Assembly: GCF_902833045.1 (NCBI RefSeq)
Contig: NZ_CADFDU010000004.1
Coordinates: 434,001-498,000, forward strand
From: Burkholderia sp. BCC0322
GTDB lineage: Bacteria > Pseudomonadota > Gammaproteobacteria > Burkholderiales > Burkholderiaceae
Length of the DNA stretch: 64,000 nt
Reading direction: 5' to 3'
Positions 34,112 to 49,474 of the stretch are shown here, piece after piece. Under the pieces are notes generated by a model. It saw only the letters and a list, made by a program, of their open reading frames with translations, ran no database searches and was not told where the DNA came from. Each line of letters starts with the position of its first letter. Within the stretch, counting starts at the first letter, position 1. A program made the position numbers and the translations under genes.

Positions 34112-34156
34112 GTGCAATAACTGACAGTTTCTCGGCCGGGGGCTTTTCATTAGATT
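34112..34156 (+). promoter_or_regulatory. lux-box-like promoter of the left biosynthetic operon
   Basis: GTGCAATAACTGACAG (34112-34127) has the lux-box layout (xTG-N10-CAG) and ends in the same GACAGT half as the two boxes at 47.4 kb. TAGATT (34151-34156) is a possible -10 element, with exactly the 23-nt gap seen there. The inner dyad AACTG-A-CAGTT is perfect. Predicted transcript start about 34162, 30 bp before the first gene. Confidence 0.5.
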
Positions 34157-34191
34157 GGCGACACGATCCATGCAAAGTCTCGCTCCCTGAC

Positions 34192-35340
34192 ATGACCCTC
34201 ACTGCCAGCGAAGTACAGCACACGACGACCGCCACGTTCCGCGACATCGCCGAACGCCATGCGCGGTCCGCCCCTTCCGGCTCATTCCATCGCGAAGCAT
34301 GGGATGCATTGTCCGAGGCGGGACTGTGGCGCCTGCCGGTAGCGCGCGAACTCGGCGGTGCGGGAAGCACGTGGCGCGACTTCATCGACGCATTCGAGAC
34401 GATTGCCGCGGCGCAGCGCTCCGTCGGCTTCGCGATGGCGCTCGCCAACCAGGCGACGCTGATTCGTGCGATCGTCGCATACGGCTCCGACGCGCAGCGC
34501 GCCCGGCATCTGCCGCCGCTGCTGTCCGGCGCCATCGGCGCCACGGCGATCTCGGAGAAAGGCACCGGCACCGAAGTGCGCGCGCTCGAAACCCGCCTCG
34601 CGCGCGACGGCGACCACTACCGGCTCGACGGCCACAAGTACAACATCAGCCACGCGCCCGAAGCGCGCCTGATGATGATCGTCGCGACCCTGGCCGGCGA
34701 TGGCAAGCCGGCCACCGCGCTGGTGCTGATCGATCCCGCACGCGCAGGCGTGCAGCGCACCGCGCCGCAGGCCACGCTCGGTGTCACGGACCTGCCGATC
34801 GGCGACCTCGCGTTGTCCGGCGTACGCGTCGAGGCCGACGAGTTGCTCGGCGCGCCCGGCGACGGACTGCGCCTGCTGATGGACATCGCGTCGATGAATC
34901 GCGCGCTGTTCGGCCTGCTGTGCGCGAACGTCACCCAGCCGTTCCTCGCCGACGCACTCGCACACACCGGCGCCCGCAAGACGCTCGGCGTCGCGCTGGA
35001 CACGCATCAGCACGTGCAGCGCCGGCTGGTCGACGTCCAGGTCGGCATCGAGCGCACCCGCTGGACGGCGCGCGCCGCGCTCGACTTGCTCGTCGAGCAG
35101 CGTCCCGAAGCCCTCGCGAACTGTTCGATCGCGAAGCTCGCGGGCGCGCGCGATCTCGCGCAGGCCGCACTGCACCTGCTTGCGATTCACGGCAGCGACG
35201 GCTACCGGCACGGTCCGCTCGCCACCTTCGTCGCCGACGCGCTCGCAATGGGATCGGCCGGCGGCACCGAGGAAATGCATTACCGGAACATCTTCAGCCA
35301 GATGCAACGACGCGCGGCCGCCACGGCGCGCGCGGCGTAA
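34192..35340 (+). CDS. acyl-CoA-dehydrogenase-fold flavoprotein, TdaE-like candidate
   Basis: 382 residues with the ACAD layout: N-terminal helical domain (HREAWDALSEAGLWRLPVAR), central beta domain (GATAISEKGTGTEVRALETR, YRLDGHKYNISHAPEARLMM) and C-terminal helical domain (QHVQRRLVDVQVGIERTRWT). At the end, where ordinary enzymes have the catalytic EGT motif, this one reads SAGGTEEMHYRNIF, so the Glu is replaced and a simple dehydrogenase is unlikely. In the tropodithietic acid pathway TdaE is a flavin dioxygenase of this fold that converts the phenylacetyl-CoA shunt product to a tropone; the cluster context supports that here. First gene of the left operon. Confidence 0.75.
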   Translation: MTLTASEVQHTTTATFRDIAERHARSAPSGSFHREAWDALSEAGLWRLPVARELGGAGSTWRDFIDAFETIAAAQRSVGFAMALANQATLIRAIVAYGSDAQRARHLPPLLSGAIGATAISEKGTGTEVRALETRLARDGDHYRLDGHKYNISHAPEARLMMIVATLAGDGKPATALVLIDPARAGVQRTAPQATLGVTDLPIGDLALSGVRVEADELLGAPGDGLRLLMDIASMNRALFGLLCANVTQPFLADALAHTGARKTLGVALDTHQHVQRRLVDVQVGIERTRWTARAALDLLVEQRPEALANCSIAKLAGARDLAQAALHLLAIHGSDGYRHGPLATFVADALAMGSAGGTEEMHYRNIFSQMQRRAAATARAA

Positions 35341-35374
35341 CCGCTCACTTTCACCCCCCCTTCAGGAGTTTCCC

Positions 35375-35779
35375 TTGACTATCCAGACTGGCCTGCGCGC
35401 CCGCGCCACTCACCGCGTCGACACGATTTCGCTTGCCGATCAATGGGGAGGCGAAGCGCACGCGCTCGCGAGCCCGATCATGATCATCTTCATCGAGCAG
35501 ACCTGCATGCAGGCGACCGACCATCTGCTGCCGGACGGGCAGATGACGGTGGGCTACAACTTCGAGATCAAGCATCTCGCACCGACGCCGCCCGAATGGG
35601 AAGTGACGGTCGACGCCGAACTGATCGAGGTCGACGGCCGCATGATGACGTACCGGGTCGAAGTGCGCGACGCGGTGGGCGTGGTCGGCGAAGGCGTGCA
35701 TACGCGCTGCGCGGTGAGCCGCGACGGCTTCCATCGCCGTCTCGCCGAGCGGCGCGACAGCACGGCGCTCGCGCGCTAA
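35375..35779 (+). CDS. FlK-type hotdog thioesterase
   Basis: 134 residues. The start is a TTG (35375) with AGGAG 6 nt upstream; no ATG is available. Residues E41 in IMIIFIEQTCM and H67 in VGYNFEIKHLAPTPPEWEVT match the catalytic Glu and His of fluoroacetyl-CoA thioesterase (FlK), and a Ser (S33) sits where FlK has Thr. The EWEVTVDAEL, DGRMMTYRVEVRDAVG and VGEGVHTRCAV strands complete the hotdog fold. The likely role is to hydrolyse a CoA ester, comparable to TdaD of tropodithietic acid clusters. It is 34 bp after the flavoprotein gene. Confidence 0.82.
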   Translation: MTIQTGLRARATHRVDTISLADQWGGEAHALASPIMIIFIEQTCMQATDHLLPDGQMTVGYNFEIKHLAPTPPEWEVTVDAELIEVDGRMMTYRVEVRDAVGVVGEGVHTRCAVSRDGFHRRLAERRDSTALAR

Positions 35780-35796
35780 CGAGCCGGAGCCCGACC

Positions 35797-36816
35797 ATGA
35801 TTCCGCTTCCGCTGCAGGGTCTCCGGCTGCCGGTGATTGCGTCTCCCATGCTGATCGCGAGCTATCCCGAGATGGTGCTCGCCCAGTGCAAGAGCGGGAT
35901 CGTCGGCGCATTTCCGGCGCTCAACGCGCGGCTCAGCGCACAGCTCGGCAACTGGATCGACACGATCGACGGCACGCTGCGTGCGTACCGGGACGCCCAT
36001 CCCGATGCGCCGGTCGGCCCGTACGCGGTCAACCACATCTGCCATCCGTCGAATCCGCGCGCCGAACAGGACCTGCGCATCTGCATCGAGCGGCGTGTGC
36101 CGCTGATGATCACGAGCCTGCGCGCACCGTCGCGCGACATCGTCGACGCGATCCACGCCTACGGCGGAATCGTGCTGCACGACGTCACGACGGTGCGGCA
36201 TGCGCAGAAGGCGCTGGAAGCCGGCGTCGACGGCCTCGTGCTCGTCGCGGCGGGTGCGGGCGGCCACGCCGGCACGTTGTCGCCGTTCGCGCTGGTCACC
36301 GAAGTACGGCGCTTCTACGACGGCTTCATCGCACTGTCCGGCGCGATCGCGACGGGCGACGCGATCGCCGCCGCGCGCGCGCTCGGCGCCGACTTCGCGT
36401 ACATCGGCACGCGCTTCCTGGCATCGCACGAAGCAAACGTGGTGCAGCGATACAAGGACACGATCGTCGAAGCCAGCGCGGCCGACATCATCTATACCGA
36501 CGCGTTCACCGGCGTCCACGGCAACTACCTGCGCCAGAGCATCGAGGCGGCCGGGCTCGACGCGCGCCGGCTCGCACGGGTCGACGGCGCGCAGCTCGAT
36601 TTCTCGCCGGAAGGCGGCGCGAAGCAGTGGCGCGACATCTGGGGGGCCGGCCAGGGCGTCGGCGCGATGGACGCGGTACTCAGCGTCGCCGAGATCGTCG
36701 AACGGCTCGAGGCCGAATACGAGCGCGCCGTCGCGCGGCTGCAGCCGGGTGCAGCCGCGCACGTCGCCGCACACCGGCCGCCCGCTTCGTCGACTTCACG
36801 GATCGAAACGCCATGA
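35797..36816 (+). CDS. nitronate-monooxygenase/2-nitropropane-dioxygenase-like FMN enzyme
   Basis: 339 residues, TIM-barrel FMN protein. LPVIASPMLIASYPEMVLAQ opens the barrel, LVLVAAGAGGHAGTLSPFAL is the FMN/active-site GGHxG segment, LSGAIATGDAIAAARALGAD and FAYIGTRFLASHEANVV form the phosphate-binding end. Family members oxidise nitronates or act as flavin reductases and enoyl reductases; the substrate here is unknown. Its stop overlaps the pheA ATG (ATGA), tying it into the operon. A second member of the family lies at 56977-58047. Confidence 0.85.
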   Translation: MIPLPLQGLRLPVIASPMLIASYPEMVLAQCKSGIVGAFPALNARLSAQLGNWIDTIDGTLRAYRDAHPDAPVGPYAVNHICHPSNPRAEQDLRICIERRVPLMITSLRAPSRDIVDAIHAYGGIVLHDVTTVRHAQKALEAGVDGLVLVAAGAGGHAGTLSPFALVTEVRRFYDGFIALSGAIATGDAIAAARALGADFAYIGTRFLASHEANVVQRYKDTIVEASAADIIYTDAFTGVHGNYLRQSIEAAGLDARRLARVDGAQLDFSPEGGAKQWRDIWGAGQGVGAMDAVLSVAEIVERLEAEYERAVARLQPGAAAHVAAHRPPASSTSRIETP

Positions 36817-37955
36817 CGCCGTCCGAACTTGCCGCCCCGTCGTCCGTCGACGATGCGATCGCGCGCCGCCGCGCGCAGATCGACGTGATCGACGACGAAC
36901 TTCTCGCGCTGATCGGCCAGCGCATCGTGCACGCGACCGAGATCGGTCATCTCAAGCGGCACGCGGGGCTCGCGGTGCAGCAGCCCGCCCGCGAAGCGTC
37001 GATCGTCGCCGAGCTGTGCACGCGCGCGCCGTGGGGGCTGCGCGACCGCGACCTGAAGGCCATCTGGCAAACGCTGTTCCGCGCGAGCCGTGACGCGCAA
37101 TCGCTGCCGTCAGTCGCGTTCCTCGGCCCGTCGGGTACCTACACCGAAGCCGCGATGTTGCGGCATTTCGGCGAGTTTGCCCGCGGGCAGGCACACGAGA
37201 CGATCGATGCAGTATTCGAAGCGCTCGCGCGCGGCGACGCGGATTGCGCGGTCGTGCCGGTCGAGAATTCCTCCGAAGGCAGCGTGACCCGCACGCTCGA
37301 CCTGCTGATCGCGCAAGCGGCACCCGTCACGGGCGAGATCGAGCTGCCGGTCGCGCACTGCCTGCTGAGCGCCAGCGGATCGCTCGCCGGCGTCGACAGC
37401 GTGGTCGGCCATCCGCAGGCACTCGCGCAATGCCGCGCGTGGCTCGACACGCATGCGCCCGGCCTGCGCCGCATCCCCGTTTCCAGCAACGCGGTGGCCG
37501 CGCGCGAAGCCGCGCACCTGTACGACTGCGCGGCGATCGCCGGCGAACCGGCAGCCGCACTTTACGGACTGCGAATCGTATCCCGCACGATCCAGGATCA
37601 CCCGGACAACCGCACGCGCTTCGTGATCGTCGGCGGGCAGATTCCCGCCCCGACCGGCCACGACCGCACGAGCATCGTGCTGCGGCCGACCGATGCGCCC
37701 GACGCGCTCGCGCGCGTATTCGATGCGCTCGCGCACCACCGCGCACCGCTGCTGTGGGTCGACGTGCGTCCGGCACGGGGCGGCGGCCATGCGTATCGGT
37801 ACTGCATCGATTTCGGCGGGCACCCGCTCGATCCGAACGTGCGCGCGGCACTCGACGAAGTCGCGCTCGCCGCTGCCGAACTGCGCGTCCTCGGCGCGTA
37901 TCCGCGTGCCGCGAGCGGGTCGGACGCACCCGCCGACGGGTCGGCCGCGCAATGA
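36813..37955 (+). CDS. pheA: chorismate mutase/prephenate dehydratase (P-protein) with degraded ACT domain
   Basis: 380 residues. Residues ~15-95 are an AroQ chorismate mutase (RRAQIDVIDDELLALIGQRI, EIGHLKRHAG); ~98-275 the prephenate dehydratase (VAFLGPSGTYTEAAMLRHFG, VPVENSSEGSVTRTLDLL, DHPDNRTRFVIVGG with the catalytic TRF); ~285-365 the ACT domain. It makes phenylpyruvate from chorismate. The two Phe-binding ACT motifs are changed: GAL reads DAL (TDAPDALARVFDAL) and ESRP reads DVRP (LLWVDVRPARGG), so feedback inhibition by phenylalanine is probably lost. This suits a biosynthetic cluster that needs phenylpyruvate; TdaC is the comparable enzyme in tropodithietic acid loci. Confidence 0.9.
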   Translation: MTPSELAAPSSVDDAIARRRAQIDVIDDELLALIGQRIVHATEIGHLKRHAGLAVQQPAREASIVAELCTRAPWGLRDRDLKAIWQTLFRASRDAQSLPSVAFLGPSGTYTEAAMLRHFGEFARGQAHETIDAVFEALARGDADCAVVPVENSSEGSVTRTLDLLIAQAAPVTGEIELPVAHCLLSASGSLAGVDSVVGHPQALAQCRAWLDTHAPGLRRIPVSSNAVAAREAAHLYDCAAIAGEPAAALYGLRIVSRTIQDHPDNRTRFVIVGGQIPAPTGHDRTSIVLRPTDAPDALARVFDALAHHRAPLLWVDVRPARGGGHAYRYCIDFGGHPLDPNVRAALDEVALAAAELRVLGAYPRAASGSDAPADGSAAQ

Positions 37956-38623
37956 CGACGGCACCCGCTTCGTCCCGCGTCGCCGCCCGACTGCTCGCGA
38001 TTCGCGACGGTCGCGACGATCGCCTGCTCGTGCTCTGCGGCATCGCCTCGGCGGGATGCTTGCCGCTCGCCGCCGGACGATGGCTGCGCGCGCTGCGCGC
38101 CGAATACGACGACGAACTGGAGTTGCTGCCGATCGTGCGCGGCATGCCGGACGCCGCCGACACCGCGTGCCTGCTGCGGCGCTGCGCGCGTCTCCAGCTT
38201 CCTGCGGTAGCGATCGGCGACACCGCGGCAACCGCCTACGGCCGCTGGCGCACATGCCTGCCCGCGGCGCCGCTGACCTGGCAGGTGCTCGAAACGGCGG
38301 CGGCACGGCCCGCGGCGCCGCTGCCCGGCGGCCTGCTGGCGCGCTGGCCGGCACGCCCGGCCGAACCGGTCGACTGGCCTCGCTCGCGCCGCGTGGTCGC
38401 CGATCTCGGCGCTGCGTCGCCGGCGCTTGGCGCCCGGATCGGCGCGCTCACCGACGCCCTGTACGACGGCACGCTCGTCATCGCCGGCATTGCGCTGGAC
38501 ACCGCCCCTGGCGCGCCTCACACCTTCATCACCGATGCACTGGACCGGCTCGCCAACTACGTCCGGATGCAGCGGATCGCCGCCGTGACACGCCGCGCCC
38601 CGTCGCTGCGGAGCCGCCTGTGA
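37952..38623 (+). CDS. collapsed DAHP-synthase-like protein (predicted pseudoenzyme)
   Basis: 223 residues. I aligned it by eye with the true DAHP synthase at 46245-47351: LLAIRDGRDDRLLVLCG matches LAQIIAGEDDRLALIVG, LRALRAEYDDELELLPIV matches LAPLRERYADVLEIVMRV, LQLPAVAIGDT matches LGLPAATEFLD, and the C-terminal YDGTLVIAGIALD and ITDALDRLANYV match HRGERAIVGVMIE and ITDACLGWDHTAELV. The catalytic elements are gone: GPCSIH reads GIASAG, and KPRT, the GGK and the DASHGNS motifs are absent or deleted. Both ends overlap neighbours (ATGA, GTGA), so it is kept and coupled. Role unknown; a regulator or partner of the real enzyme is possible. Confidence 0.75.
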   Translation: MTTAPASSRVAARLLAIRDGRDDRLLVLCGIASAGCLPLAAGRWLRALRAEYDDELELLPIVRGMPDAADTACLLRRCARLQLPAVAIGDTAATAYGRWRTCLPAAPLTWQVLETAAARPAAPLPGGLLARWPARPAEPVDWPRSRRVVADLGAASPALGARIGALTDALYDGTLVIAGIALDTAPGAPHTFITDALDRLANYVRMQRIAAVTRRAPSLRSRL

Positions 38624-39144
38624 GCCCGCGCTCGCAGGCCGGCCCGACGCGCATCGCGCTCGTCGGGATGCCCGGCGCCGGCAAGACGACCCTCGGCAGC
38701 GCACTGGCCGGCGCGCTCGGTTTGCCGTTCGTCGACGCCGATCGGGAACTCGAACGCCGCTTCGGCGCCCCCGTCGCGGCGCAATTCCATGCGGGCGACT
38801 TCCGCGCACGTGAGGCCGACGTCATCGACGCGCTGACGCGCGGGCCGGCGCTCGTGCTCGCGACCGGCGGCGGCGCCGTGCTGCGCGACGATACGCGCGC
38901 CCGGCTCGGCCAGCGCTGTTTCGTGATCCATCTCGCGAGCGATCTCGACACCCTGTTGCACCGCACGCGCGACGACGCGTCCCGCCCGCTGCTGAACGTC
39001 GCCGACCCGCGCGCGGCGCTCGCCGCGCTGCACGACGCGCGCGAATCGCTGTACCGCGCATGCGCGCATCGCCGCATCGACACATCCGGCCAGTCCGTCG
39101 CACAAACGCTCGCGGCAGCGCTCGACGCGCTTGCCATGGCGTAA
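38620..39144 (+). CDS. aroK: shikimate kinase
   Basis: 174 residues. P-loop ALVGMPGAGKTTLGSALAGA near residue 16; DADRELERRFG holds the shikimate-binding Asp/Arg; VLATGGGAVLRDDTRARLGQ carries the GGG motif; the lid Arg is in RDDASRPLLNVADPR. It phosphorylates shikimate at the 3-hydroxyl. The start is a GTG at 38620 that overlaps the stop of the DAHP-synthase-like gene (GTGA). It is a second, cluster-specific copy next to pheA and DAHP synthase, consistent with a dedicated flux boost. The left operon ends here, 150 bp before the efflux genes. Confidence 0.9.
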   Translation: MSPRSQAGPTRIALVGMPGAGKTTLGSALAGALGLPFVDADRELERRFGAPVAAQFHAGDFRAREADVIDALTRGPALVLATGGGAVLRDDTRARLGQRCFVIHLASDLDTLLHRTRDDASRPLLNVADPRAALAALHDARESLYRACAHRRIDTSGQSVAQTLAAALDALAMA

Positions 39145-39237
39145 ATCGCTCCTCCGATCGGCCCCCCCTTCAGCTGCTTCAACTCCGCCGGCCGGTTCGG
39201 CGGACTGCCATTTCTACCAGTTGCCGAGCGTCAAATA

Positions 39238-39263
39238 ATATCTAAAGATATATTTTTAGATAT
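39238..39263. promoter_or_regulatory. AT-rich operator upstream of the efflux operon
   Basis: ATATCTAAA (39238-39246) and TTTAGATAT (39255-39263) are a perfect 9-bp inverted repeat with an 8-bp centre; the half-site AGATAT/ATATCT occurs three times. It lies 31 bp before the outer-membrane component gene, in a stretch almost without G or C. MarR- or TetR-like repressors use such sites; none is encoded next to it. Confidence 0.65.
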
Positions 39264-39294
39264 ATTGTTCGCCATCGCGCACAGGAAACCGACC

Positions 39295-40740
39295 ATGCCC
39301 TCTCTCATCGACCGAGCGCGCGGCTCACGCCGCCTGGTTCCCGCGCTCGCCGCGCTTGCGATCGCCGGCTGCGCGCCGTTCGGCGCGCAACGCCCGGCGG
39401 CCCGGATGACGCCCGTCGAGCAACTCGATGCGGGCGCCGCGATCCACGCCGCCGGCGCAGGCTCGCCGACGATCGCCGAACGCTGGTGGACCGCGTTCGG
39501 CGATGCGCAGCTGGATCGCCTCGTCGACGATGCACTGGCCGGCGCCCCGACGCTGCAGGCGCAACGCGAACGTGTCGCGCAGGCGCTCGCCGACGCCGAT
39601 GTCGAAAGCGCCGCGCTGTTGCCGCAACTCGGCGCGACGGTCAGTGCGGTGCCGACGCGCCTGCCCGGCAGCTACCGGACACCTCCACCCGCGGCCGGCC
39701 ACTGGCAGGTCGACGCGCAGGCGCTCCTCGGCGCATCGTGGAATCTCGACATCGCCGGCCGGCAGCACGCGCTGGCCCGCGCCGCCGCGCTGCGCGCGGA
39801 CCAGCAGCGCGCGCTCGAGCACGCGGCCACCGTGTCGCTACAGGCGGCGATCGTCGAAACCTATCTGCAGCTCGTGCTCGAACAGCAATTGCTCGCGATC
39901 TCGCGCGATACGCTGCAGCAACACAGCTATCTGCTCCGCCTCACGTCGCAACGCGCCGACGCCGGGCTCGACATGCAGGTCGCCGTGCTTAGGGCAAGCG
40001 AACCCATTCCGCACGCGCAGGCCGACATCGACACGCACGCGGCCGCATCGGCCCGGCTGCGCCACCGGCTCGCCGCGCTCGTCGGCCGGGGGCCCGGTTA
40101 CGCCGATGCGCTGACGCCGGCCGCGCCGCCCGCGGCCGAGCCGCCGATGCCGGCCGTCCTGCCCGCGGCGCTGATCGGCCGCCGGCCGGACGTACTGGCC
40201 GCGCGCTACCAGGTCGAAGCCGAGGCGGCGAACATCGACGCGGCGCGCGCCGCGTTCTATCCGGACGTCAACCTGATGGCCTTCGCCGGCGTGCAGAGCT
40301 TCGGCTTCCGCGCGCTGTTCCACGGCAACAGCGGCACGTTCGGCGCGGGTCCCGCGATCACGCTGCCGATTTTCGAGGGTGGCCGGCTGCGAGCCGGCCT
40401 GCGCGCACAAACCGCCGCCTACAACGCCGCCGTCGCGGTGTACGACGACACGGTCGTCAACGCGCTTGCACAGGTCAGCGACACCCTCGTCCAGATCGAC
40501 ACCCTCCGCCGGCAGCGCGCGCTTCAGCGCGACGCGCTGTCGCGCGCGCAACAGACCTACGCCGTCGAAACGCAGCGCTACCGGAAGGGCATTTCCGGCT
40601 ACCTCGACGTCCTGCTCGCCGAAGGCCGGCTGCTCGAGGATCGCGCATCGGTCGCCCGTGCGGACGCGTCGTTCGCGATCGAGCACGCCCGCCTGATCGC
40701 CGCGCTCGGCGGCGCCACTTCCACTGGAGTCACGCAATGA
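39295..40740 (+). CDS. outer-membrane efflux lipoprotein (NodT/OprM family)
   Basis: 481 residues. The signal sequence ends in the lipobox LAIAGC. Two TolC-type repeats follow: WWTAFGDAQLDRLVDDALAG and AAILVETYLQ-like helices in the first, RPDVLAARYQVEAEAANIDA, ARAAFYPDVNLMAFAGVQSF and AGPAITLPIFEGGRLRAGLR in the second. It forms the outer-membrane channel of the tripartite pump with the next two genes. AGGAAA lies 8 nt before the ATG. The stop overlaps the HlyD gene (ATGA). Confidence 0.9.
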   Translation: MPSLIDRARGSRRLVPALAALAIAGCAPFGAQRPAARMTPVEQLDAGAAIHAAGAGSPTIAERWWTAFGDAQLDRLVDDALAGAPTLQAQRERVAQALADADVESAALLPQLGATVSAVPTRLPGSYRTPPPAAGHWQVDAQALLGASWNLDIAGRQHALARAAALRADQQRALEHAATVSLQAAIVETYLQLVLEQQLLAISRDTLQQHSYLLRLTSQRADAGLDMQVAVLRASEPIPHAQADIDTHAAASARLRHRLAALVGRGPGYADALTPAAPPAAEPPMPAVLPAALIGRRPDVLAARYQVEAEAANIDAARAAFYPDVNLMAFAGVQSFGFRALFHGNSGTFGAGPAITLPIFEGGRLRAGLRAQTAAYNAAVAVYDDTVVNALAQVSDTLVQIDTLRRQRALQRDALSRAQQTYAVETQRYRKGISGYLDVLLAEGRLLEDRASVARADASFAIEHARLIAALGGATSTGVTQ

Positions 40741-41936: not shown

Positions 41937-41938
41937 CG

Positions 41939-43477
41939 ATGCGCTTTTTCGCCCGGAACGCGGCGCCGAAACTGCCGCTGGAGCCGCTCGCCGGCATGCC
42001 GCTGGCGCTCGTCGCGATCGCGGTCAGCGTCGCGAATTTCATGCAGACGCTCGACCTGACGATCGCGAACGTCGCCGTCCCGACCATCGCGGGCGATCTC
42101 GGCGTCGCGCCCGACATGGGCACCTGGATGCTGACCTCGTTCGCGACGCCGCTCGCGATCACGCTGCCGCTCACCGGCTGGCTCACGCAGCGCTTTGGCC
42201 AGGTGCGGCTGTTCCGCCTGTCGGTGCTGCTCTTCGTGCTCACGTCGGTCCTGTGCGGGATGGCGCCGAACTTCGAGTCGCTGCTGCTGTTTCGCGCGCT
42301 TCAGGGCGCCGCGTCGGGCCCGATCACCGCGCTATCCCAGGCGCTGCTGATGGCGGTGTTCCCGTCGACGCGCCGCCACGTCGCGCTGGCCGTGTGGCAG
42401 ACCACGACGTTCGTCGCACCGGTACTCGGGCCAATTGCCGGCGGCTGGATCACCGACAACCTGAGCTGGCCGTACATCTTCTACGTGAACGTACCGCCGG
42501 GCGTGCTCGTGCTGGGCGTACTCGCGCGGCTGCTGGCGGGACGCGACAACGCGACGCGGCGCCTGCCGGTCGACGTCGTCGGGCTGCTGCTGCTCACCGC
42601 CGCGTTCGGTTCGTTCCAGCTGCTGCTCGATCGCGGCCAGAACCTCGACTGGTTCGCCTCCGGCGAAATTCGCGGGCTGGCGGTCGTGGCGGTCGTGTCG
42701 TTCATCGCGCTGATCCTCTGGGAGCTGACCGACGACCATCCGATCGTCGACCTGCGATTGTTCGCGGACCGCAACTTCTCGACGAGCACGCTCGCGATCA
42801 CGGTCGGCTTCGGGCTCTACTTCGGTGCGCTGGTGCTCGTGCCGCTGTGGCTGCAGACCCAGCAGGGCTACACGGCCACCTGGGCCGGCATCGCCACCGC
42901 GCCGCTCGGCGTCGCGGGGATCGTGATCGCGCCGCTTCTCGGCCGCTTCCAGGGCCGCACCGACCCGCGCCTGCTCGCGACCGTCGCACTCGTCGGATGG
43001 GGCGCCGCATCGTTCTGGCGCATGCATTTCAACACCGACGTGACCCTTGGGGACATCGCCGCCAATTCGCTGCTGATGGGCGCCGCCACCGCGTTCTTCA
43101 TCACGCCGCTCGTGTCGCTTTCGCTCGCCGGGCTGCCCCGCGAGCGGCTGCCCGCTGCATCCGGGCTGCAGAACGCGCTGCGACGGATCGGCACCAGCGT
43201 CGCGACCTCGGTCGCGCCGACTTACTTCGAGCGCCGTTCCCGCGTGCACAACACCTATCTCGTCGACCACATCACGCCGTACGATTTCGCGTCCGGCGAC
43301 TGGTTCGCGCGGCTCGATCACGCGGGACTGTCGCCGTCCGGTGCGCTTGCATCCGTCGCACATTCAATCGACGTCGAAGCGCACATGCTCGCGCTGAACG
43401 ATTTTTCGTTCGGCTGCCTGCTGCTGTTCGGCGCGACGCTGCTGACGGTCTGGTCGATCCGCTACCGCCACGCGTGA
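41939..43477 (+). CDS. MFS exporter, DHA2/EmrB family, 14 spans
   Basis: 512 residues. NFMQTLDLTIANVAVPTIAG is the first-span DHA2 motif; GWLTQRFGQVRLFRLSVLLF is motif A; VAPVLGPIAGGWITDNLSWP is motif C. It is the inner-membrane pump of the tripartite system and starts 2 bp after the HlyD gene. In the cluster context it is the probable exporter and self-resistance determinant for the product. Residues near the C terminus (RSRVHNTYLVDHITPYDFAS) are typical of the EmrB subgroup. Confidence 0.92.
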   Translation: MRFFARNAAPKLPLEPLAGMPLALVAIAVSVANFMQTLDLTIANVAVPTIAGDLGVAPDMGTWMLTSFATPLAITLPLTGWLTQRFGQVRLFRLSVLLFVLTSVLCGMAPNFESLLLFRALQGAASGPITALSQALLMAVFPSTRRHVALAVWQTTTFVAPVLGPIAGGWITDNLSWPYIFYVNVPPGVLVLGVLARLLAGRDNATRRLPVDVVGLLLLTAAFGSFQLLLDRGQNLDWFASGEIRGLAVVAVVSFIALILWELTDDHPIVDLRLFADRNFSTSTLAITVGFGLYFGALVLVPLWLQTQQGYTATWAGIATAPLGVAGIVIAPLLGRFQGRTDPRLLATVALVGWGAASFWRMHFNTDVTLGDIAANSLLMGAATAFFITPLVSLSLAGLPRERLPAASGLQNALRRIGTSVATSVAPTYFERRSRVHNTYLVDHITPYDFASGDWFARLDHAGLSPSGALASVAHSIDVEAHMLALNDFSFGCLLLFGATLLTVWSIRYRHA

Positions 43478-43729
43478 TGCACGCGCCACGGCCGGCGGCC
43501 GTGGCGCGCACCGTCTGCGATACGTCCGGCTCCGGTGACTTCGACGCAAGCTCGCGGTAGCCATAGCCTTGGCCGCAGCGGCGTTCAATCACGACCTCGC
43601 GTTGACACACCTCCCGCACCGTCCGGCGTGCCCTGCCATGCGCGACCTCCGTGTGAATCGGGCGACGGCATGGGCGAAGCCACGCGGGAAATCTCCGAAG
43701 CCCGCCACGCTCGACTGCACTCCTGAACG

Positions 43730-43768
43730 AAAAAAAAGGCTCCGCGCCGGAAGACCCGGCGCGGAGCC
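43730..43768 (-). terminator. intrinsic terminator of the right biosynthetic operon
   Basis: A perfect 11-bp stem, GGCTCCGCGCC (43738-43748) with GGCGCGGAGCC (43758-43768), has a 9-nt loop and, read on the minus strand, a run of eight T. It lies 17 bp after the DUF1330 gene stop. Confidence 0.92.
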
Positions 43769-43784
43769 CCTTCACCTTCACCGC

Positions 43785-44096
43785 TTAACGCGGATCGCTG
43801 GCGACCGGCACGTATCCTTCGGCGAGGATGCCGGTCGTCCGGGCCGCCGGCTCGCGCAGCAGCTTCGCTGCCTGATAGCCTTCGGACCGATACCATTCGC
43901 GGGCGCGCAGCGCCGACTCGAACTCGAGCACGACGACGCGCTTCGGCGACCACTCCCCTTCCAGCGTTTCGACTTCGACGCCGCGCACCAGGAAACGCCC
44001 GCCGTACTCGGCCACCGTCGGCGCGCCGAGCCGGCGGTACGCCTGGTATGCGTCGACGTCGTGTATGTCGATATCGAACACCACGTATGCGCTCAT
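43785..44096 (-). CDS. DUF1330 family protein
   Basis: 103 residues. [60 protein letters not shown] and [20 protein letters not shown] are the DUF1330 pattern, a ferredoxin-like alpha+beta-barrel family related to EthD and to small ring-modifying proteins. Function unknown; in a biosynthetic cluster it may help an aromatic or tropone intermediate along (cyclase, isomerase or reactivity control). Its ATG overlaps the ferredoxin stop (ATGA). Last gene of the right operon. Confidence 0.85.
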
Positions 44097-44449
44097 GATC
44101 GCGCCTCCGCCGGCTCCGCCGCAAGCTGCACGAACACGCGGCCGTTCTCGATCTTCACCGGATAGGTGCGCACGCACGTCGTCAGCGGCGCGCACAGCGC
44201 GATGCCGGTCCGCACGCTGAAGCGCCCCTGATGCAGCGGGCACTCGATCTCGTCGTCGAGCAGGAAACCGTCGCTCAGCCGCGCGTCACCGTGCGTGCAC
44301 TGGTTCTCGGTCGCGAAGATCTCGTCGCCCACCGCATACAGCGCGATGTCGCGGCCGCCGACCCGGACGCCGAGCAATCCGTCGGTCCGCACCGCTTCCG
44401 GCGCGACCGCATCGATCCAATTCGTAGTCACTTTCGGCACCTCGCTCAA
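44093..44449 (-). CDS. Rieske [2Fe-2S] ferredoxin of a ring-hydroxylating oxygenase
   Basis: 118 residues. [20 protein letters not shown] followed by PLHQG is the C-x-H...C-x-x-H cluster motif; the rest ([20 protein letters not shown] and [10 protein letters not shown]) is the typical beta-barrel. It passes electrons to the terminal oxygenase. The best start is a TTG at 44449 overlapping the beta-subunit stop (TTGA); a GTG at 44440 is the alternative. No reductase gene follows, so electrons must come from a reductase elsewhere. Confidence 0.87.
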
Positions 44450-44973
44450 ACCGGGAAAATCAGCGAGTTCGGAATCATCTCGCTGTCGTAGACGCAGATG
44501 CGCGACTCGAAACGCAGCCCCTGCGGCGTCCGCACGATCCGGTCCAGGTAGCGCCCGGTGTTGTAGACGTCGCTCATCTGCTCGGTCTTCGTGCGCAGCA
44601 CCGCGTAGTTCGTCTCCGCCTCGATCGCCGCGTCGTCGAGATACGTGACGAGCGGCAGCCCGATCACGTGGCGCTGATAGTACGGATCGAAGAACAGCGT
44701 CTCCTTGATCCCGTAGACGCGATCCTTCAGCATGCCCTTGCTCTCGAAGTCCATCACCGCGAGCGGCAGGTTGCGCTCGTGGTTCTCGCGCGGCACCACC
44801 GTATACCGGCATTGCTCGACGAAGAATTCCGGCCATGCGTCCCAGTCACCGCTGTCGAGCACGGCCGCATACCGTGCATTGAGCTGGACGAGCGCATAGA
44901 AATCCTCGAAGCTCGCGCCGCCGAGGTGCGGCTCGGCGGCCGGCCGGCCCGTTCGTGTCGTGATCGTGCTCAT
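44446..44973 (-). CDS. ring-hydroxylating oxygenase, small (beta) subunit
   Basis: 175 residues with the SnoaL-like cone fold: [60 protein letters not shown] and [20 protein letters not shown] are family-typical. Structural partner of the alpha subunit in an alpha3beta3 assembly. It starts directly after the alpha stop. The resemblance is greatest to the subunits of salicylate/anthranilate-type oxygenases, judged by eye. Confidence 0.88.
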
Positions 44974-46233
44974 TCAGGCCTCCATCACTTGGCGCCAGTA
45001 CTGGTACATGCCGCGCACCAGCGTTTCACTGACCATATGGTCGGTTTGCTCGTCGACCTGCCGGCCGCCGAGTTCGTTGTAGACGTTGCCGCGCTGGATC
45101 TGCTCGAAGCTCTGCTGCACGCACTCGATGACTTCACCATCGTCCGCCGACACGAAGCCGGCCGGCCCGAACAGATTGGCCTGGCGCAGACGGCGCCGCG
45201 TCATCTCCTCGGTGTCGGTCTCGAAACCGAAATGCGTCCACACGTAGTCGAACACGCCCGGGCTGACCGGCCGGATGCGCCGCGTCGACAACGCATTGAC
45301 CTGCTGCTGGATGATGACGCTCGGCATCAGCGTGAGCATCACGACGGTCGGATCGCCCCACCACGGTTCGTGCACGACATCGAGGAAGCGGTCGTCGTTC
45401 AGCGTCATGCGCTCCTTGAAGCTCGTCACGTTGTGGGTCACCTCGCCGCCGCCGCCGCCGCTGCGGATCGACACCATCGCACCGTGCCGGTGATGCTCGT
45501 CGGTCACGAGCTTGGCGGGATTGTCCGCGCGCCACAGGCCGAAATTGACGAACCAGGTATGCAGCAGCCCCGCGTGATACGGATCCTTGATGTTCTCGAC
45601 CATCAGCTTCCAGTTGCTCGGCACGCGTTGCCGCGTGTAGCCGAGCACCGTCAGCTTCGGACCGTGGAACAGGCGATCGTAGTAAGGCAGGATGCGCGGC
45701 CCGAGGAAATCCTCGAACGATTCGACGTTCTCGTCGAACGACGCGAACACCGCGCCGCCGCGCGTCGACACGCGCAGGCGCCGCAGCGCATGCTTGCCCG
45801 GATCGAAATCCGCCGGCATGCCGCCGTTGATCGTGCCGCCCTGACGCACGCCGCGCCGGAACGGCACGCCGATCAGGTTGCCCTTCAGGTCATAGTTCCA
45901 CTGGTGATATGGGCAGTGGAAATCCTTTGCTTTCCCCGAACGTTCCCGGCAAAACTGCATGCCGCGGTGTGCGCACGCATTTTCGAAGACGACGATTTCG
46001 CCGTCCTCCGTGCGCGTCATCACGACGGAACGCTCGCCGACTTCCGTGCGCTGGAAATCGCCGGGAGACGGCACTTCGGCTTCGAGGCCGATGTAGCACC
46101 AGTGATTCGCGTAGAACAGGCGCTCGAGTTCACGCTGATACAGCGCTTCACTCGTGTACGCCTCGTACGGCGTGCGGCTGGCACCGTCGCCTTTCCAGTC
46201 AAGCGCGCGGGCGATGTCGATGGGTGAGTTCAA
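44974..46233 (-). CDS. ring-hydroxylating oxygenase, large (alpha) subunit
   Basis: 419 residues. The Rieske centre is C87/H89 in ENACAHRGMQFC and C106/H109 in HCPYHQW; the mononuclear iron site is in LMVENIKDPYHAGLLHTW (Asp-x2-His-x4-His). C-terminal catalytic-domain features follow to residue 419. The start is a TTG at 46233 with AAAGGAG 5 nt upstream, 11 bp after the DAHP synthase stop; a longer frame to 46374 would overlap that gene. It hydroxylates an aromatic or tropone ring; the combination with DAHP synthase in one operon is unusual. Substrate class by eye resembles salicylate 5-hydroxylase and anthranilate dioxygenases. Confidence 0.88.
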   Translation of the reverse strand: MNSPIDIARALDWKGDGASRTPYEAYTSEALYQRELERLFYANHWCYIGLEAEVPSPGDFQRTEVGERSVVMTRTEDGEIVVFENACAHRGMQFCRERSGKAKDFHCPYHQWNYDLKGNLIGVPFRRGVRQGGTINGGMPADFDPGKHALRRLRVSTRGGAVFASFDENVESFEDFLGPRILPYYDRLFHGPKLTVLGYTRQRVPSNWKLMVENIKDPYHAGLLHTWFVNFGLWRADNPAKLVTDEHHRHGAMVSIRSGGGGGEVTHNVTSFKERMTLNDDRFLDVVHEPWWGDPTVVMLTLMPSVIIQQQVNALSTRRIRPVSPGVFDYVWTHFGFETDTEEMTRRRLRQANLFGPAGFVSADDGEVIECVQQSFEQIQRGNVYNELGGRQVDEQTDHMVSETLVRGMYQYWRQVMEA

Positions 46234-46244
46234 GAGAGCTCCTT

Positions 46245-47351
46245 TCAGTAAGAAACGGCCTGCATCGCGACGGCGGCGCCGTGCGCGATGAAGCCGGCTG
46301 GCGAACGCCGCCGCGCAACCACCGCGGCAGCCAACTGCTCGACAAGTTCGGCCGTGTGATCCCAGCCGAGACATGCGTCCGTAATGCTTTGGCCGAACAC
46401 CGGCGGCGTGCCCGGCACCACGTCCTGCCGCCCCTCGACGAGGAACGACTCGATCATCACGCCCACGATGGCGCGCTCGCCGCGATGCAGTTGCGCGGCG
46501 AGATTGCCGCAGACATCGATCTGCGCGCGCGTCTGCTTGCCGCTGTTGCCATGGCTCGCGTCGATCACGACATACGGGGGGAGATGCGCGTCGCGCAGCG
46601 CGGCGCAGGCCGCCGCAACGCTCGCGGCATCGTAATTCGGAGTCTTGCCGCCGCGCAGGACGACATGCGTGTCGGGATTGCCGGGCGTGGTCGCAATTTC
46701 CACGCCGCCGGAAACGGACGGCCTCAGGTAGCAGTGCGAAGCGCGGGACGCGCGGATCGCATCGATCGCGACCTTCACGTTGCCGTCGGTGCCGTTCTTG
46801 AAGCCGACCGGCAGGTCGAGCCCCGATGCCGCCTGACGATGGATCTGCGATTCGGTCGTCCGGGCGCCGATCGCGCCCCAGGATACGAGGTCGTCGAGAT
46901 ACGGTGCGGTCATCGGATCGAGAAACTCCGTCGCGGCCGGCAGGCCCAGCGCATTGATCCCGAGCAGCACCTTGCGCGCAACGCGCAGGCCGTCCTCGAT
47001 CCGGAAACTGCCGTCGAGATACGGATCGTTCACCAGTCCTTTCCAGCCGACCGTGGTGCGCGGCTTTTCGAAATAGACCCGCATCACGATCTCGAGCACA
47101 TCGGCGTACCGCTCGCGCAGCGGCGCGAGCCGCCGCGCGAACGCCAGCGCGGCCTCTGCGTCATGGATCGAACACGGGCCGACGATCAGCGCAAGCCGAT
47201 CGTCCTCGCCCGCGATGATCTGCGCCAATGCACGCCGCGCATCGCCGATCGAGCGTGCCAGGCCGGGATCGCATGGCAACTCTGCGCGCAACCGCTGCGC
47301 ACTGATCACCGCCACGCCTTGCGTCAACGCTGCCTCAACGGATTTTTCCAT
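46245..47351 (-). CDS. 3-deoxy-7-phosphoheptulonate synthase, AroAI-alpha type
   Basis: 368 residues. It condenses PEP with erythrose 4-phosphate, the entry step of the shikimate pathway. LALIVGPCSIHDAEAALAFA, VYFEKPRTTVGWKGLVNDPY, PVGFKNGTDGNVKVAIDAIR, HVVLRGGKTPNYDAASVAAA and VVIDASHGNSGKQTRAQIDV are all intact, so it is active by sequence. GGAG lies 6 nt before the ATG. It is the first gene of the right operon, behind a lux-box-like promoter. A catalytically dead relative lies in the left operon. Confidence 0.94.
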   Translation of the reverse strand: MEKSVEAALTQGVAVISAQRLRAELPCDPGLARSIGDARRALAQIIAGEDDRLALIVGPCSIHDAEAALAFARRLAPLRERYADVLEIVMRVYFEKPRTTVGWKGLVNDPYLDGSFRIEDGLRVARKVLLGINALGLPAATEFLDPMTAPYLDDLVSWGAIGARTTESQIHRQAASGLDLPVGFKNGTDGNVKVAIDAIRASRASHCYLRPSVSGGVEIATTPGNPDTHVVLRGGKTPNYDAASVAAACAALRDAHLPPYVVIDASHGNSGKQTRAQIDVCGNLAAQLHRGERAIVGVMIESFLVEGRQDVVPGTPPVFGQSITDACLGWDHTAELVEQLAAAVVARRRSPAGFIAHGAAVAMQAVSY

Positions 47352-47394
47352 TTATCACTCCACTCTCGCTGATCGGATGCCGATTTCCGAAGCA

Positions 47395-47506
47395 ATTAGA
47401 GCGCGGTCAAATCCGGGGTGATACTGTCATTTATCTCAGAAGCATTTCGCATAGTGAATATCTGTGATTTCCGACAGTATTCCAATATGCGGATCACGTC
47501 TAACTT
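47395..47506. promoter_or_regulatory. symmetric divergent promoter with two lux-box-like sites
   Basis: Box A CTGTCATTTATCTCAG (47424-47439) and box B CTGTGATTTCCGACAG (47462-47477) both have the CTG-N10-CAG lux-box layout. Minus-strand TCTAAT (plus 47395-47400) lies 23 nt from box A; plus-strand TAACTT (47501-47506) lies 23 nt from box B, so each box would be centred at about -42.5, the classic position for LuxR activation. The halves nearest each -10 are identical when read in the transcription direction (GACAGTAT). They serve the DAHP synthase/oxygenase operon (minus) and the thioesterase (plus). Confidence 0.7.
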
Positions 47507-47557
47507 AACTCCTGAACAAACACGTTCTCACCTGCTGTTCTGCCAAGGAGCCTCGCA

Positions 47558-47998
47558 ATGACAAGAAAATATTTCGAAACCCGGATCGACGTGAAATATC
47601 GGGAAACGGACGCAATGGGCCATGTGAGCAGCCCGGTCTATTACGATTATCTGCAGCATGCATACCTGACCTACATGCACGATCTGCTGGAGCTGCCCTA
47701 TTCGGAAAAGCTGCCGCACATCATGGTCAAGACGTCGTGCGAGTATCTGAAACCCGCGCAGTACGGAGATACGATCACGGTCCGCAGCAGCGTCACGCGC
47801 TTCGGCTCGAAGAGCTTCGAACTGGAATACCTGATGGTGCGCGACGCGCAGGCGCCCGGCGAGGATTCGGACGACGATCAGGCGGTGGTTGCGCGCGCCG
47901 TGTCCACGCACGTGATGTTCGATTACGGCAGCAAGACCACGGTGCCGGTGCCGGAAGAGTTCAGGACGCGCGTGCTGTCGTTCCAGGGCGCAATCTGA
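47558..47998 (+). CDS. YbgC/FadM-type acyl-CoA thioesterase (4HBT)
   Basis: 146 residues. FETRIDVKYRETDAMGHVSS is the hotdog active-site region (Asp in YRETDAMGHV), followed by YYDYLQHAYLTYMHDLLELP and CEYLKPAQYGDTITVRSSVT. It hydrolyses a CoA thioester, often hydroxybenzoyl- or phenylacetyl-like acyls in this family. AAGGAG lies 9 nt before the ATG. It is divergent from the DAHP synthase operon with its own lux-box-like promoter, so it is the second thioesterase of the cluster. Confidence 0.88.
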   Translation: MTRKYFETRIDVKYRETDAMGHVSSPVYYDYLQHAYLTYMHDLLELPYSEKLPHIMVKTSCEYLKPAQYGDTITVRSSVTRFGSKSFELEYLMVRDAQAPGEDSDDDQAVVARAVSTHVMFDYGSKTTVPVPEEFRTRVLSFQGAI

Positions 47999-48030
47999 TG
48001 TCACAACCGGGGCGCACGCCCCGGTGCCGT

Positions 48031-48270
48031 TCATGCAAACACGATCAGGCCCATCAGCACGGCCTTCACCACCGCATTGGTCTTGTTGCATGCGTTGAGC
48101 TTCACGATCGATCTCGATATATGGAAATTGATCGTCCTCTCGGTCAAGCCGAGGATGATGCCGATCTCATACGCGGTCTTCCCCTCCGCTGCCCATCGCA
48201 ATACCTCGCACTCGCGCATGCTCAGCGTGACATCATCGGGAGTCGCGATATTCGCCGCACAATGAACCAT
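48031..48270 (-). CDS. single-domain LuxR-type HTH protein
   Basis: 79 residues, only the DNA-binding domain: LSMRECEVLRWAAEGKTAYE and IGIILGLTERTINFHISRSI and VKLNACNKTNAVVKAVLMGL match the C-terminal HTH of quorum-sensing LuxR proteins almost end to end (S-x-R-E-x-E-V-L-x-W-x-A-x-G-K-T). The autoinducer-binding domain is absent; an AT-rich region precedes it. I prefer the ATG at 48270 (GGAG 6 nt upstream) to 48282. It may bind the nearby lux boxes or interfere with a full-length regulator elsewhere. It could also be the remnant of a longer gene, but the good ribosome site argues for use. Confidence 0.8.
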   Translation of the reverse strand: MVHCAANIATPDDVTLSMRECEVLRWAAEGKTAYEIGIILGLTERTINFHISRSIVKLNACNKTNAVVKAVLMGLIVFA

Positions 48271-48559
48271 TCGTTTCTCCATCCAAAATAAGACGCCAAT
48301 ATTTCAGATTCATGATTTCCAATTTTCACCTCAATTCACATACCCCTCGGATTGGATATTTATTATTTAAAGGCGTCACGAATGTTCGGCGAATTCAAAA
48401 GCAATAAACGTCCTAACCATTATCTCCGGTGTTGTCCAACCGGAATCGAGCATACCGAATCGATTTACGCTTCGGAAGATGCATGAAACGCAATATATCA
48501 ATGACGTTGACGCACGCCACAACACTTGCATGGCGCGTCACGTCGAAGCGGCCACGAAG
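48271..48559. other. AT-rich intergenic segment
   Basis: About 290 bp between the LuxR-type gene and the LysR gene. It is markedly AT-richer than anything nearby (notably 48290-48400) and holds no gene I can support on either strand; no remnant of an autoinducer-binding domain was found by eye. It may mark the scar of an insertion or the edge of a transferred segment. Confidence 0.5.
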
Positions 48560-49474
48560 CTAGCGGGCGTTCGCCTCGGCAACGCGTGGCGCACAGATAT
48601 TGCGCACGCAATCGCGCAGCCATCGATGCGCGGGGTCGCGATCGAAACGCGGGTGCCAGATCTGCGAGACGGTCAGGTCGGCGATCGGCACCGGCAGCGT
48701 AAAACTGTGCATGCCGACGCGGGACCGCTCGGTCTGCCGCTCCGGCACGCTGGCGACGAAGTCCGAGCCGCGCGCAAGCGACAGCGCGGTCGGGAAGCTC
48801 GCCACGACGGTGGTCACCGAGCGCGCGATGCCGAGGGCATCGAGCAGCGTATCGATCGGTCCGTTGAACTGCCCGCGGCGCGACACGCCCACGTGCGGAA
48901 ACGACACGAAGCGTTCCGGCGTCATTTCGCCGGACGCCAGCGGATGATCCGTGCGGACCACGCCGATGAAGCGGTCGCGAAACAGCGCCTGCACGCGCAA
49001 CTCGGGGCCGGCCTGGCCGATCACGCCGACCTCGAGATCGATGTCGCCGTTGCGCAGCGCGTCGACATGCTTGTTGGGTTTGGGTGCGAAACGCAGCCGC
49101 ACGTCGGGTGCCGTGTGCGACGCGTACTCGAGCAGCGCCGGCGCGAACGTCTCGACGAACGCCTCGTTCGCGCGAATCGAGAACGTGCGCTTGAGCGTGG
49201 ACATGTCGACCCGTTCGCACGGGCACATGACCGATTGCGCCTCCACGACGAGCGCATGCACCCTGTCGCGCAACTCGAGCGCGCGCGGGGTCGGGACGAG
49301 GTCCCGTCCCGCCCGCACCAGCAACGGGTCGCCCGTCATCACCCGCAACCGTGCGAGCGAGCGGCTGAGTGCGGACGGACTCAGGCCGAGCGCGTTGGCC
49401 GCGCCCACTACGCTGTTCTCGGACAGCAACGCGTCCAGAACGACAAGAAGATTGAGGTCGATGGAAGTCGCCAT
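48560..49474 (-). CDS. LysR-type regulator of the cluster, NodD-like subgroup
   Basis: 304 residues. The HTH is DLNLLVVLDALLSENSVVGA and ANALGLSPSALSRSLARLRV, and the early Asp-Leu-Asn-Leu-Leu is typical of the NodD/PcpR/TdaA-like subgroup. It has GDPLLVRAGRDLVPTPRALE and the effector domain with FVSFPHVGVSRRGQFNGPID. A LysR (TdaA) also controls tropodithietic acid clusters, which fits its place at the right edge of this one. I chose the ATG at 49474; longer frames exist but lack a ribosome site. Confidence 0.87.
   Translation of the reverse strand: MATSIDLNLLVVLDALLSENSVVGAANALGLSPSALSRSLARLRVMTGDPLLVRAGRDLVPTPRALELRDRVHALVVEAQSVMCPCERVDMSTLKRTFSIRANEAFVETFAPALLEYASHTAPDVRLRFAPKPNKHVDALRNGDIDLEVGVIGQAGPELRVQALFRDRFIGVVRTDHPLASGEMTPERFVSFPHVGVSRRGQFNGPIDTLLDALGIARSVTTVVASFPTALSLARGSDFVASVPERQTERSRVGMHSFTLPVPIADLTVSQIWHPRFDRDPAHRWLRDCVRNICAPRVAEANAR

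Follow-up and report, generated by a model that had tools for sequence, protein, structure and literature searches.

Which product would be made by a bacterial gene cluster that combines a relative of the flavoprotein TdaE with a Rieske oxygenase of the salicylate 5-hydroxylase type? This question is raised by 17 neighbouring genes in a stretch of 64,000 nucleotides from Burkholderia sp. BCC0322 (contig NZ_CADFDU010000004.1, positions 434,001 to 498,000), called the window here, whose own numbering is used for all coordinates. The answer that we find on balance probable is a tropone-type cluster that would make and export an oxygenated troponoid from the phenylacetate shunt product. Gene content, family placement and genome-wide linkage of the parts are established by comparison; all the chemical steps, the order of the substrates and the product we infer.

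The flavoprotein and the two thioesterases

The flavoprotein gene (34192-35340, + strand) encodes a protein of 382 residues with the three acyl-CoA dehydrogenase (ACAD) domains N, M and C of Pfam. The solved structures that it matches with E no higher than 1e-20 comprise 26 distinct sequences, all named dehydrogenases, and the best match has 100 bits. A search of genomes and plasmids gave 40% identity to TdaE of Phaeobacter inhibens (WP_014881725.1), whereas the known-type proteins of the family average 55% identity to TdaE with a minimum of 47%. The nearest named matches, at 96%, are in B. puraquae and B. lata. A first-pass annotation, made from the letters of the window alone, had described an ACAD-fold protein with a dead motif, and this is borne out by alignment to rat SCAD: the position of what we take to be the catalytic glutamate of the dehydrogenases is Gly357 here and likewise a glycine, G361, in P. 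inhibens TdaE.

The placement of this protein was examined with two trees. The first had 67 rows, namely 17 of the clade that includes the window protein (clade A), 37 of the known type and 13 other B. lata dehydrogenases as outgroup. It joined known type and clade A against the outgroup with support 100 and gave clade A as one group with support 99. Thirty ACAD loci were fetched from B. lata; 15 met the limits for inclusion, and removal of the clade-A and known-type proteins left the 13 rows, two of which are identical. The TdaE of B. plantarii (WP_042624079.1) lay outside the fetched loci and hence outside the comparison; three relatives of 24-26% identity (L083, L084 and L085, from 53 loci) were left out of both ACAD trees, and another locus, L100, fell under the coverage limit. 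In the second tree, to which two Streptomyces ACADs were added, known type and clade A stayed on the same side of a branch with support 99 and the S. rimosus protein fell outside. An ordinary acyl-CoA dehydrogenase is ruled out by both trees. As the first-pass annotation had expected, the protein groups with TdaE and TpoE and away from ordinary dehydrogenases (HsaA-type enzymes do not appear in the trees by name). Judged by sequence, it is a member of the TdaE family from a divergent clade and at most a putative TdaE.

The divergence is also visible in single residues. If a column is called TdaE-specific when its residue is invariant in the known type and seldom seen in the outgroup, the window flavoprotein keeps 34 of 55 such columns. 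The changed columns crowd in residues 61-89, with 10 of 15 changed against 11 of 40 elsewhere (p 0.012, for a segment chosen after seeing the data). We presume this segment to line the acyl pocket. This divergence qualifies the likeness to TdaE that had been suggested.

A TdaD-type acyl-CoA thioesterase of the 4HBT family is encoded at 47558-47998 (+). It is 60% identical to P. inhibens TdaD (WP_014881726) and 59% to a P. donghuensis protein and falls inside the TdaD/TpoD tree, so that it is classed from its sequence as a TdaD/TpoD orthologue. A gene of this type at 67-98% identity is present in 13 of the 16 genomes searched, the same 13 that hold the full set described below. A second copy occurs in six Burkholderia genomes at 70-73% and in T. 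fusca at 65%, and G045 has a single copy at 63%; the remaining matches in the 16 genomes are three at 45-47% and others at 25-30%. The second thioesterase, of the FlK hot-dog type and 134 residues long, is encoded at 35375-35779 (+, TTG start), 34 bp after the flavoprotein gene (Pfam FlK 1.3e-26 over the longer open reading frame 35180-35779). The FlK-type family is, we assume, the same as COG5496. In the published account, Pseudomonas TpoE requires the thioesterase TpoD for release of the acid and TdaE itself cleaves the thioester (PMC11481866). A thioesterase beside the flavoprotein makes sense because TpoE needs TpoD in this way.

The Rieske oxygenase and its linkage to the flavoprotein

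The Rieske oxygenase alpha subunit (44974-46233, - strand, TTG start presumed) has the Pfam Rieske and Ring_hydroxyl_A domains over its longer reading frame. Its top solved match is the salicylate 5-hydroxylase NagG (7c8z) with 644 bits and E 7.5e-193, aligned over residues 12-417 of 419, and the next match has 293 bits. Among NCBIfam models those of the anthranilate dioxygenase AndA subunits come nearest, with scores below cut-off. The beta subunit (44446-44973, -; Pfam Ring_hydroxyl_B) and a Rieske ferredoxin (44093-44431, -, GTG start; Pfam Rieske over the longer frame, NCBIfam AndAb-like below cut-off) accompany it, so alpha, beta and ferredoxin subunits and the carboxylate-binding arginine of the NagGH type are all present. 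On these sequence grounds the enzyme is assigned to the salicylate 5-hydroxylase (NagG) type. According to the account of terephthalate dioxygenase in PMC9060491, the carboxylate of the substrate is bound by a conserved arginine, R323 in NagG, and the pocket also contains M257. Their counterparts are Arg318 and Met253, if the solved chain carries a 19-residue tag as we assume. All 21 cluster rows, drawn from 15 sources, keep both residues, and so do 17 other rows of the family. The 21 rows, six of which are second copies from genomes already represented, form one clade with support 100, in which 27 positions (the first two residues not counted) are fixed differently from the 17 other members. 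Moreover, the alpha subunit has the lowest dN/dS of the block, 0.05-0.06 against two near loci, L032 and L090.

The linkage of these genes was followed in two draws of 299 family genomes, treated as one sample since the genome handles agree. The clade-A flavoprotein, called at 56% identity or more with a 77% fragment in G200 excluded, is present in 15 of the 299. The clade Rieske alpha (86% or more) is present in 13, all within those 15 (Fisher p 5.6e-21, a figure that overstates independence as these are related genomes of two genera). FlK was found in 13 of 24 genomes searched, exactly the 13 with the clade Rieske gene, and FlK, clade Rieske, TdaD and clade-A flavoprotein thus share the same 13 genomes. 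A chance gene neighbourhood is ruled out by this linkage and by the conservation of the parts.

In three of these genomes the genes do not form one block. The flavoprotein of Trinickia soli lies about 63 kb from FlK and a block of Rieske, DAHP synthase, TdaD and LysR genes; in the metagenome-assembled genome FW106 12.6 kb separate it from FlK, and a different contig holds the Rieske block; and in T. fusca one contig carries flavoprotein and FlK and another the Rieske part. The cluster is contiguous in T. dabaoshanensis and T. diaoshuihuensis. In P. ribeironis the genes are rearranged on a single contig, and in P. ferrariae (L040) no Rieske gene was seen in the fetched part, the far end of the locus being outside coverage.

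This distribution bears on the possibility of an ordinary tropolone cluster as in B. plantarii, in which the Rieske enzyme, the FMN enzyme and the DUF1330 protein would detoxify, protect or do minor tailoring. Such a cluster would explain why a TdaE-family flavoprotein and a TdaD orthologue stand together with precursor genes, and the product of TdaE is reported to decarboxylate spontaneously to tropolone (PMC8283759). However, FlK and the clade Rieske gene accompany 13 of the 15 clade-A flavoproteins and were not found in any of the 8 genomes with only a known-type flavoprotein. In addition, 7 of the 15 also hold a known-type flavoprotein (told by 38-46% identity), which would leave no need for another plain tropolone cluster, and the changed residues crowd in 61-89. 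We regard an ordinary tropolone cluster as unlikely.

It could also be supposed that two separate systems adjoin each other: 34192-43477 together with 47558-47998 would be a tropone operon, and 43785-46233 an operon for gentisate formation by a salicylate 5-hydroxylase. The NagG-type alpha subunit does keep the substrate-contact arginine and the pocket methionine, and the Rieske genes form a separate operon on the opposite strand. Nevertheless the DAHP synthase gene lies 11 bp upstream of the alpha subunit in the same apparent operon, the cluster alphas are a clade of their own with the fixed differences given above, and in genomes with the flavoprotein elsewhere the Rieske gene remains beside the DAHP synthase, TdaD and LysR genes. 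No gentisate dioxygenase or gentisate pathway gene was found among the 17 cluster genes by Pfam, a search that covered these genes and not the rest of the window. Two independent systems are therefore very improbable.

Some further loci were noted. L100 (G200:C1:104000-123800), in another Burkholderia, has only fragments that match the flavoprotein (79%) and the shikimate kinase (67%) and is a decayed cluster remnant; FlK and clade Rieske were not found in that genome. In four Trinickia-group genomes (L096-L099) the clade-A flavoprotein stands apart between neighbouring open reading frames of similar size. The clade-A gene is on contig C2 (3.0-3.2 Mb) in G206, G253 and G163 and on the 1.2-Mb contig C3 in G142, with the known-type copy on C1 in G206, G163 and G142; the clade-A gene seems to have moved between replicons.

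Arrangement of the locus and its other genes

All parts listed by the first-pass annotation are where it had put them according to Pfam, NCBIfam and the gene map, with the correction that coding begins at 34192 and not at 34112. Two genes come in addition, at 37952-38623 and at 48031-48282 (-). The genes form three apparent transcription units. The first (34192-43477, +) continues after the FlK gene with an FMN enzyme of the nitronate monooxygenase/FabK family (35797-36816, 339 residues; Pfam NMO, FabK and NMO matches in PDB, NCBIfam FabK below cut-off), a bifunctional chorismate mutase-prephenate dehydratase or P-protein (36813-37955; Pfam CM_2 and PDT, NCBIfam PRK11898 over cut-off), a protein of 223 residues (37952-38623) and a shikimate kinase (38620-39144, GTG start; Pfam SKI 2.2e-36 over the longer frame). 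These four genes are linked by four-base overlaps, and a gap of 150 bp separates them from the exporter genes, which encode an outer-membrane efflux protein (39295-40740; Pfam OEP), a membrane fusion protein of the HlyD/EmrA type (40737-41936; Pfam HlyD_3 and HlyD_D23) and an EmrB-type MFS exporter (41939-43477; Pfam MFS_1). The second unit (43785-47351, -) runs from a class I DAHP synthase (46245-47351; Pfam DAHP_synth_1 1.2e-84) through the Rieske alpha, beta and ferredoxin genes to a DUF1330 protein of 103 residues (43785-44096; Pfam DUF1330 1.6e-29), with gaps of 11, 0, 14 and -4 bp. The third is the divergent TdaD-type gene, followed on its 3' side by two minus-strand genes encoding a stand-alone LuxR-type helix-turn-helix regulator of 83 residues (48031-48282; Pfam GerE 1.3e-16) and a LysR regulator (48560-49474; Pfam HTH_1 and LysR_substrate over the longer frame).

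DAHP synthase, chorismate mutase-prephenate dehydratase and shikimate kinase fit a supply of precursor. The motifs of the shikimate kinase and of the DAHP synthase are present, read with the meanings that we take them to have. The P-protein had been called deregulated; it gives no ACT domain match in Pfam and its motifs are altered in what we presume to be a meaningful way, which makes deregulation itself plausible. For the protein of 223 residues neither Pfam nor NCBIfam gave a family. Compared with DAHP synthase, it aligned in its C-terminal part by hhalign (probability 27, E 7e-4), and a local pairwise alignment scored 60 in the N-terminal part (shuffled sequences 38+/-6, maximum 69 of 300), so that it is possibly a degenerate DAHP synthase-like protein. 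Its homologues are in the near Burkholderia loci, in G142 and in two Trinickia clusters.

The LysR protein is 44-45% identical to a LysR in the Pseudomonas loci L048, L050, L052, L060 and L082. The LuxR-type protein is conserved in clade-A loci and has matches of 44-61% in 13 of 36 known-type loci (L047-L082); it is a possible shared regulator of tropone clusters. Some of the known-type flavoproteins likewise have genes for TdaD, DAHP synthase, P-protein, exporter or LuxR-type proteins next to them.

In the near Burkholderia loci (L032-L038 and L086-L091) the cluster genes are 89-100% identical, and most of the set recurs in G142 and in Trinickia and Paraburkholderia loci. The dN/dS of the cluster genes is 0.05-0.26 against L032 and L090; one alignment in the run (FMN enzyme, L094) crossed a stop. 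The cluster is flanked upstream by glutamine synthetase and FAD oxidoreductase genes and downstream by a TauE/SafE gene and an amino-acid permease, none of which is counted in it, and the Burkholderia small RNA ncS035 is present in the window. The G+C content is 61-63% over 46001-50000 and 64-73% elsewhere in the window, with 58% in the TdaD-type gene and 54% in the LuxR-type gene, which suggests a mosaic origin.

Proposed pathway and comparison with known systems

In the pathway that we propose, DAHP synthase, shikimate kinase and chorismate mutase-prephenate dehydratase would raise the supply of phenylpyruvate, and the phenylacetyl-CoA pathway of the host would yield the seven-membered shunt product 2-hydroxycyclohepta-1,4,6-triene-1-formyl-CoA. 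Models for PaaA and PaaN score above cut-off in each of the 16 relatives whose genomes were searched. The clade-A flavoprotein would dehydrogenate and probably also oxygenate the shunt product, and the FlK-type or the TdaD-type thioesterase, or both, would release the acid. The Rieske enzyme could then hydroxylate a salicylate-like ring acid (or tropolone) held by its carboxylate-binding arginine. Decarboxylation, possibly with the FMN enzyme and the DUF1330 protein, would give a hydroxylated tropolone or tropone, to be exported by the outer-membrane, fusion and MFS proteins under the putative regulation of the LysR and the small LuxR-type protein. A hydroxylated, exported tropone had been the proposal of the first-pass annotation. 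The identification of the Rieske enzyme as a salicylate 5-hydroxylase relative sharpens the first part of it, and a hydroxylated product is a reasonable expectation from the gene content; product, hydroxylation and export are still inferred.

Several observations weigh against this pathway. Clade A stands outside the characterised and known-type proteins in both trees, on a long stem; the split between known type and clade A has support 0 in the 67-row tree and 94 in the tree with the Streptomyces ACADs, and 21 of the 55 TdaE-specific columns are changed. G060 and G045 carry a clade-A flavoprotein, and neither FlK nor clade Rieske was found there, nor a close TdaD in G060. The gene set is not fixed: shikimate kinase was not detected in L092, L093 and L043, nor the 223-residue protein in L040, L042 and L043, and the T. 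soli block L162 has no match for P-protein, 223-residue protein, shikimate kinase or outer-membrane efflux protein. Among the 17 cluster genes Pfam gave no Rieske reductase. The pairing of ACAD and FlK is not specific for tropones, since a Streptomyces rimosus cluster that includes a ketoacyl-ACP synthase III has it too. Finally, the authors of PMC11481866 caution that many TpoE-like clusters may not yield tropolones.

Some of these points would suit a cluster with no tropone pathway, whose clade-A flavoproteins use another CoA ester or a carrier-bound aromatic towards some other product derived from phenylpyruvate or salicylate; the divergent clade with its changed columns, the S. rimosus pair and the published caution all speak for it. 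It is countered by the TdaD orthologue and the shared core genes, by the position of the S. rimosus flavoprotein outside the group of known type and clade A (support 99) and by the lack of any salicylate synthase family among the 17 cluster genes in Pfam, and we consider it improbable.

In S. rimosus plasmid pPZG101 (L183, 5788-7387) the ACAD-family gene, about 40% identical to the TdaE family, lies beside an FlK-like gene, and the pair follows ketoacyl-ACP synthase III and an aminotransferase; this is possibly a related but different biosynthetic cluster. A triad of ACAD, FlK and FMN enzyme was looked for in other phyla in 4 of 51 listed rows and was rejected there: pPZG101 has the pair with its ACAD placed outside as stated, and in S. 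cadmiisoli, Streptomyces sp. HUAS 31 and Cupriavidus sp. different genes adjoin the homologue of the FMN enzyme. In S. cadmiisoli one of them encodes an ACAD, which groups with ordinary dehydrogenases.

Within the preferred reading of a troponoid cluster a narrower proposal can be made, which we put forward tentatively as a possibility short of probable. The Rieske enzyme and the clade-A flavoprotein would be a second, non-flavin route to hydroxylation of the troponoid ring, with tropone-2-carboxylate (or its epoxide) as a mimic of salicylate. At a similarly tentative level, the ring would be hydroxylated before decarboxylation, giving a substitution pattern unlike that of 7-hydroxy- and 3,7-dihydroxytropolone. 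If this route exists, several species of the Burkholderia cepacia complex would make two troponoids from two clusters. Ditropolonyl sulfide is reported from isolates of this complex (PMC7912996). If the wider pathway holds, a further troponoid is predicted in Burkholderia and Trinickia species. A ring hydroxylase of the salicylate-hydroxylase family was not seen in the tropone pathways compared, and the product may be new.

Part of this is already in print. A 2024 mBio paper lists B. cepacia clusters of a TpoE-like flavoprotein with a COG5496 small thioesterase as uncharacterised leads (PMC11481866), and these are very probably clusters of the type in the window. The troponoid potential of such clusters is thus partly published there, with the words 'Rieske' and 'nitronate' absent from the main text, and the identification of the Rieske enzyme is new here. 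A literature search on tropolone or TdaE with Rieske, nitronate monooxygenase, salicylate 5-hydroxylase or fluoroacetyl-CoA thioesterase gave no other title or abstract opening that describes the cluster. The mBio paper states that the route of hydroxyl entry into the Pseudomonas hydroxytropolones is open; the cluster supplies a concrete candidate hydroxylase for Burkholderia that is of a different kind, being a Rieske enzyme whose carboxylate-binding pocket is defined. TdaE is reported as the first flavoprotein dioxygenase (PMC8283759), and the divergent clade offers a comparison with it.

The tda cluster of P. inhibens shares with the window a TdaE-family flavoprotein (40%), a TdaD thioesterase (60%) and a LysR gene. 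In the published account its TdaE converts the phenylacetate shunt product to an epoxytropone carboxylate that decarboxylates to tropolone (PMC8283759). In contrast to the window, it has TdaB and TdaC, for which tblastn at 1e-4 gave no match in the 64 kb, and its TdaA has no tblastn match to the cluster LysR; the other window cluster genes are unmatched in 19 kb around tdaE. A tropodithietic acid cluster is ruled out by the unmatched TdaB and TdaC. The tropone-type reading of the first-pass annotation agrees with the TdaD orthologue and the precursor genes; TdaC, which it had also named, is not found, and the LysR is not detectably TdaA-like. Its remark that the sulfur-insertion genes are missing agrees with the result for TdaB. 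The putative clusters for tropolone in B. plantarii and for ditropolonyl sulfide in B. cenocepacia are alike in Burkholderia host, TdaE homologue and shikimate-pathway genes, and the latter differs by its PatB/TdaB homologues (PMC8283759); the word 'Rieske' is absent from that paper.

The tpo cluster for 7-hydroxytropolone of P. donghuensis HYS (L060) resembles the window in flavoprotein (42%), TdaD/TpoD (59%), LysR (45%) and exporter genes (24-35%). Unlike the window, it has no Rieske, FlK or NMO match within the fetched 21 kb, and the published account saw no hydroxylase candidate in the Pseudomonas clusters (PMC11481866). NagGH of Ralstonia sp. U2 (7c8z) has the pocket arginine and methionine in common with the window alpha subunit, which differs by its clade separate from 17 family members, its tropone-cluster context and the lack of a reductase or gentisate gene among the 17 cluster genes. 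The Streptomyces trl cluster for 3,7-dihydroxytropolone also draws on a DAHP synthase and a chorismate-to-phenylpyruvate enzyme for supply (PMC7497051). Its ring tailoring is done by a salicylate-hydroxylase-like enzyme, and its TrlE and TrlCD are flavin monooxygenases, neither TdaE-like nor Rieske, according to the account in PMC11110157; the Pfam family of this type is not among the 17 cluster genes. TrlE is there compared with salicylate hydroxylases, binds salicylate and acts on a ring acid (PMC11110157). A Rieske enzyme of the salicylate 5-hydroxylase type acting on a ring acid in Burkholderia would, by analogy, be a recruitment parallel to that of TrlE.

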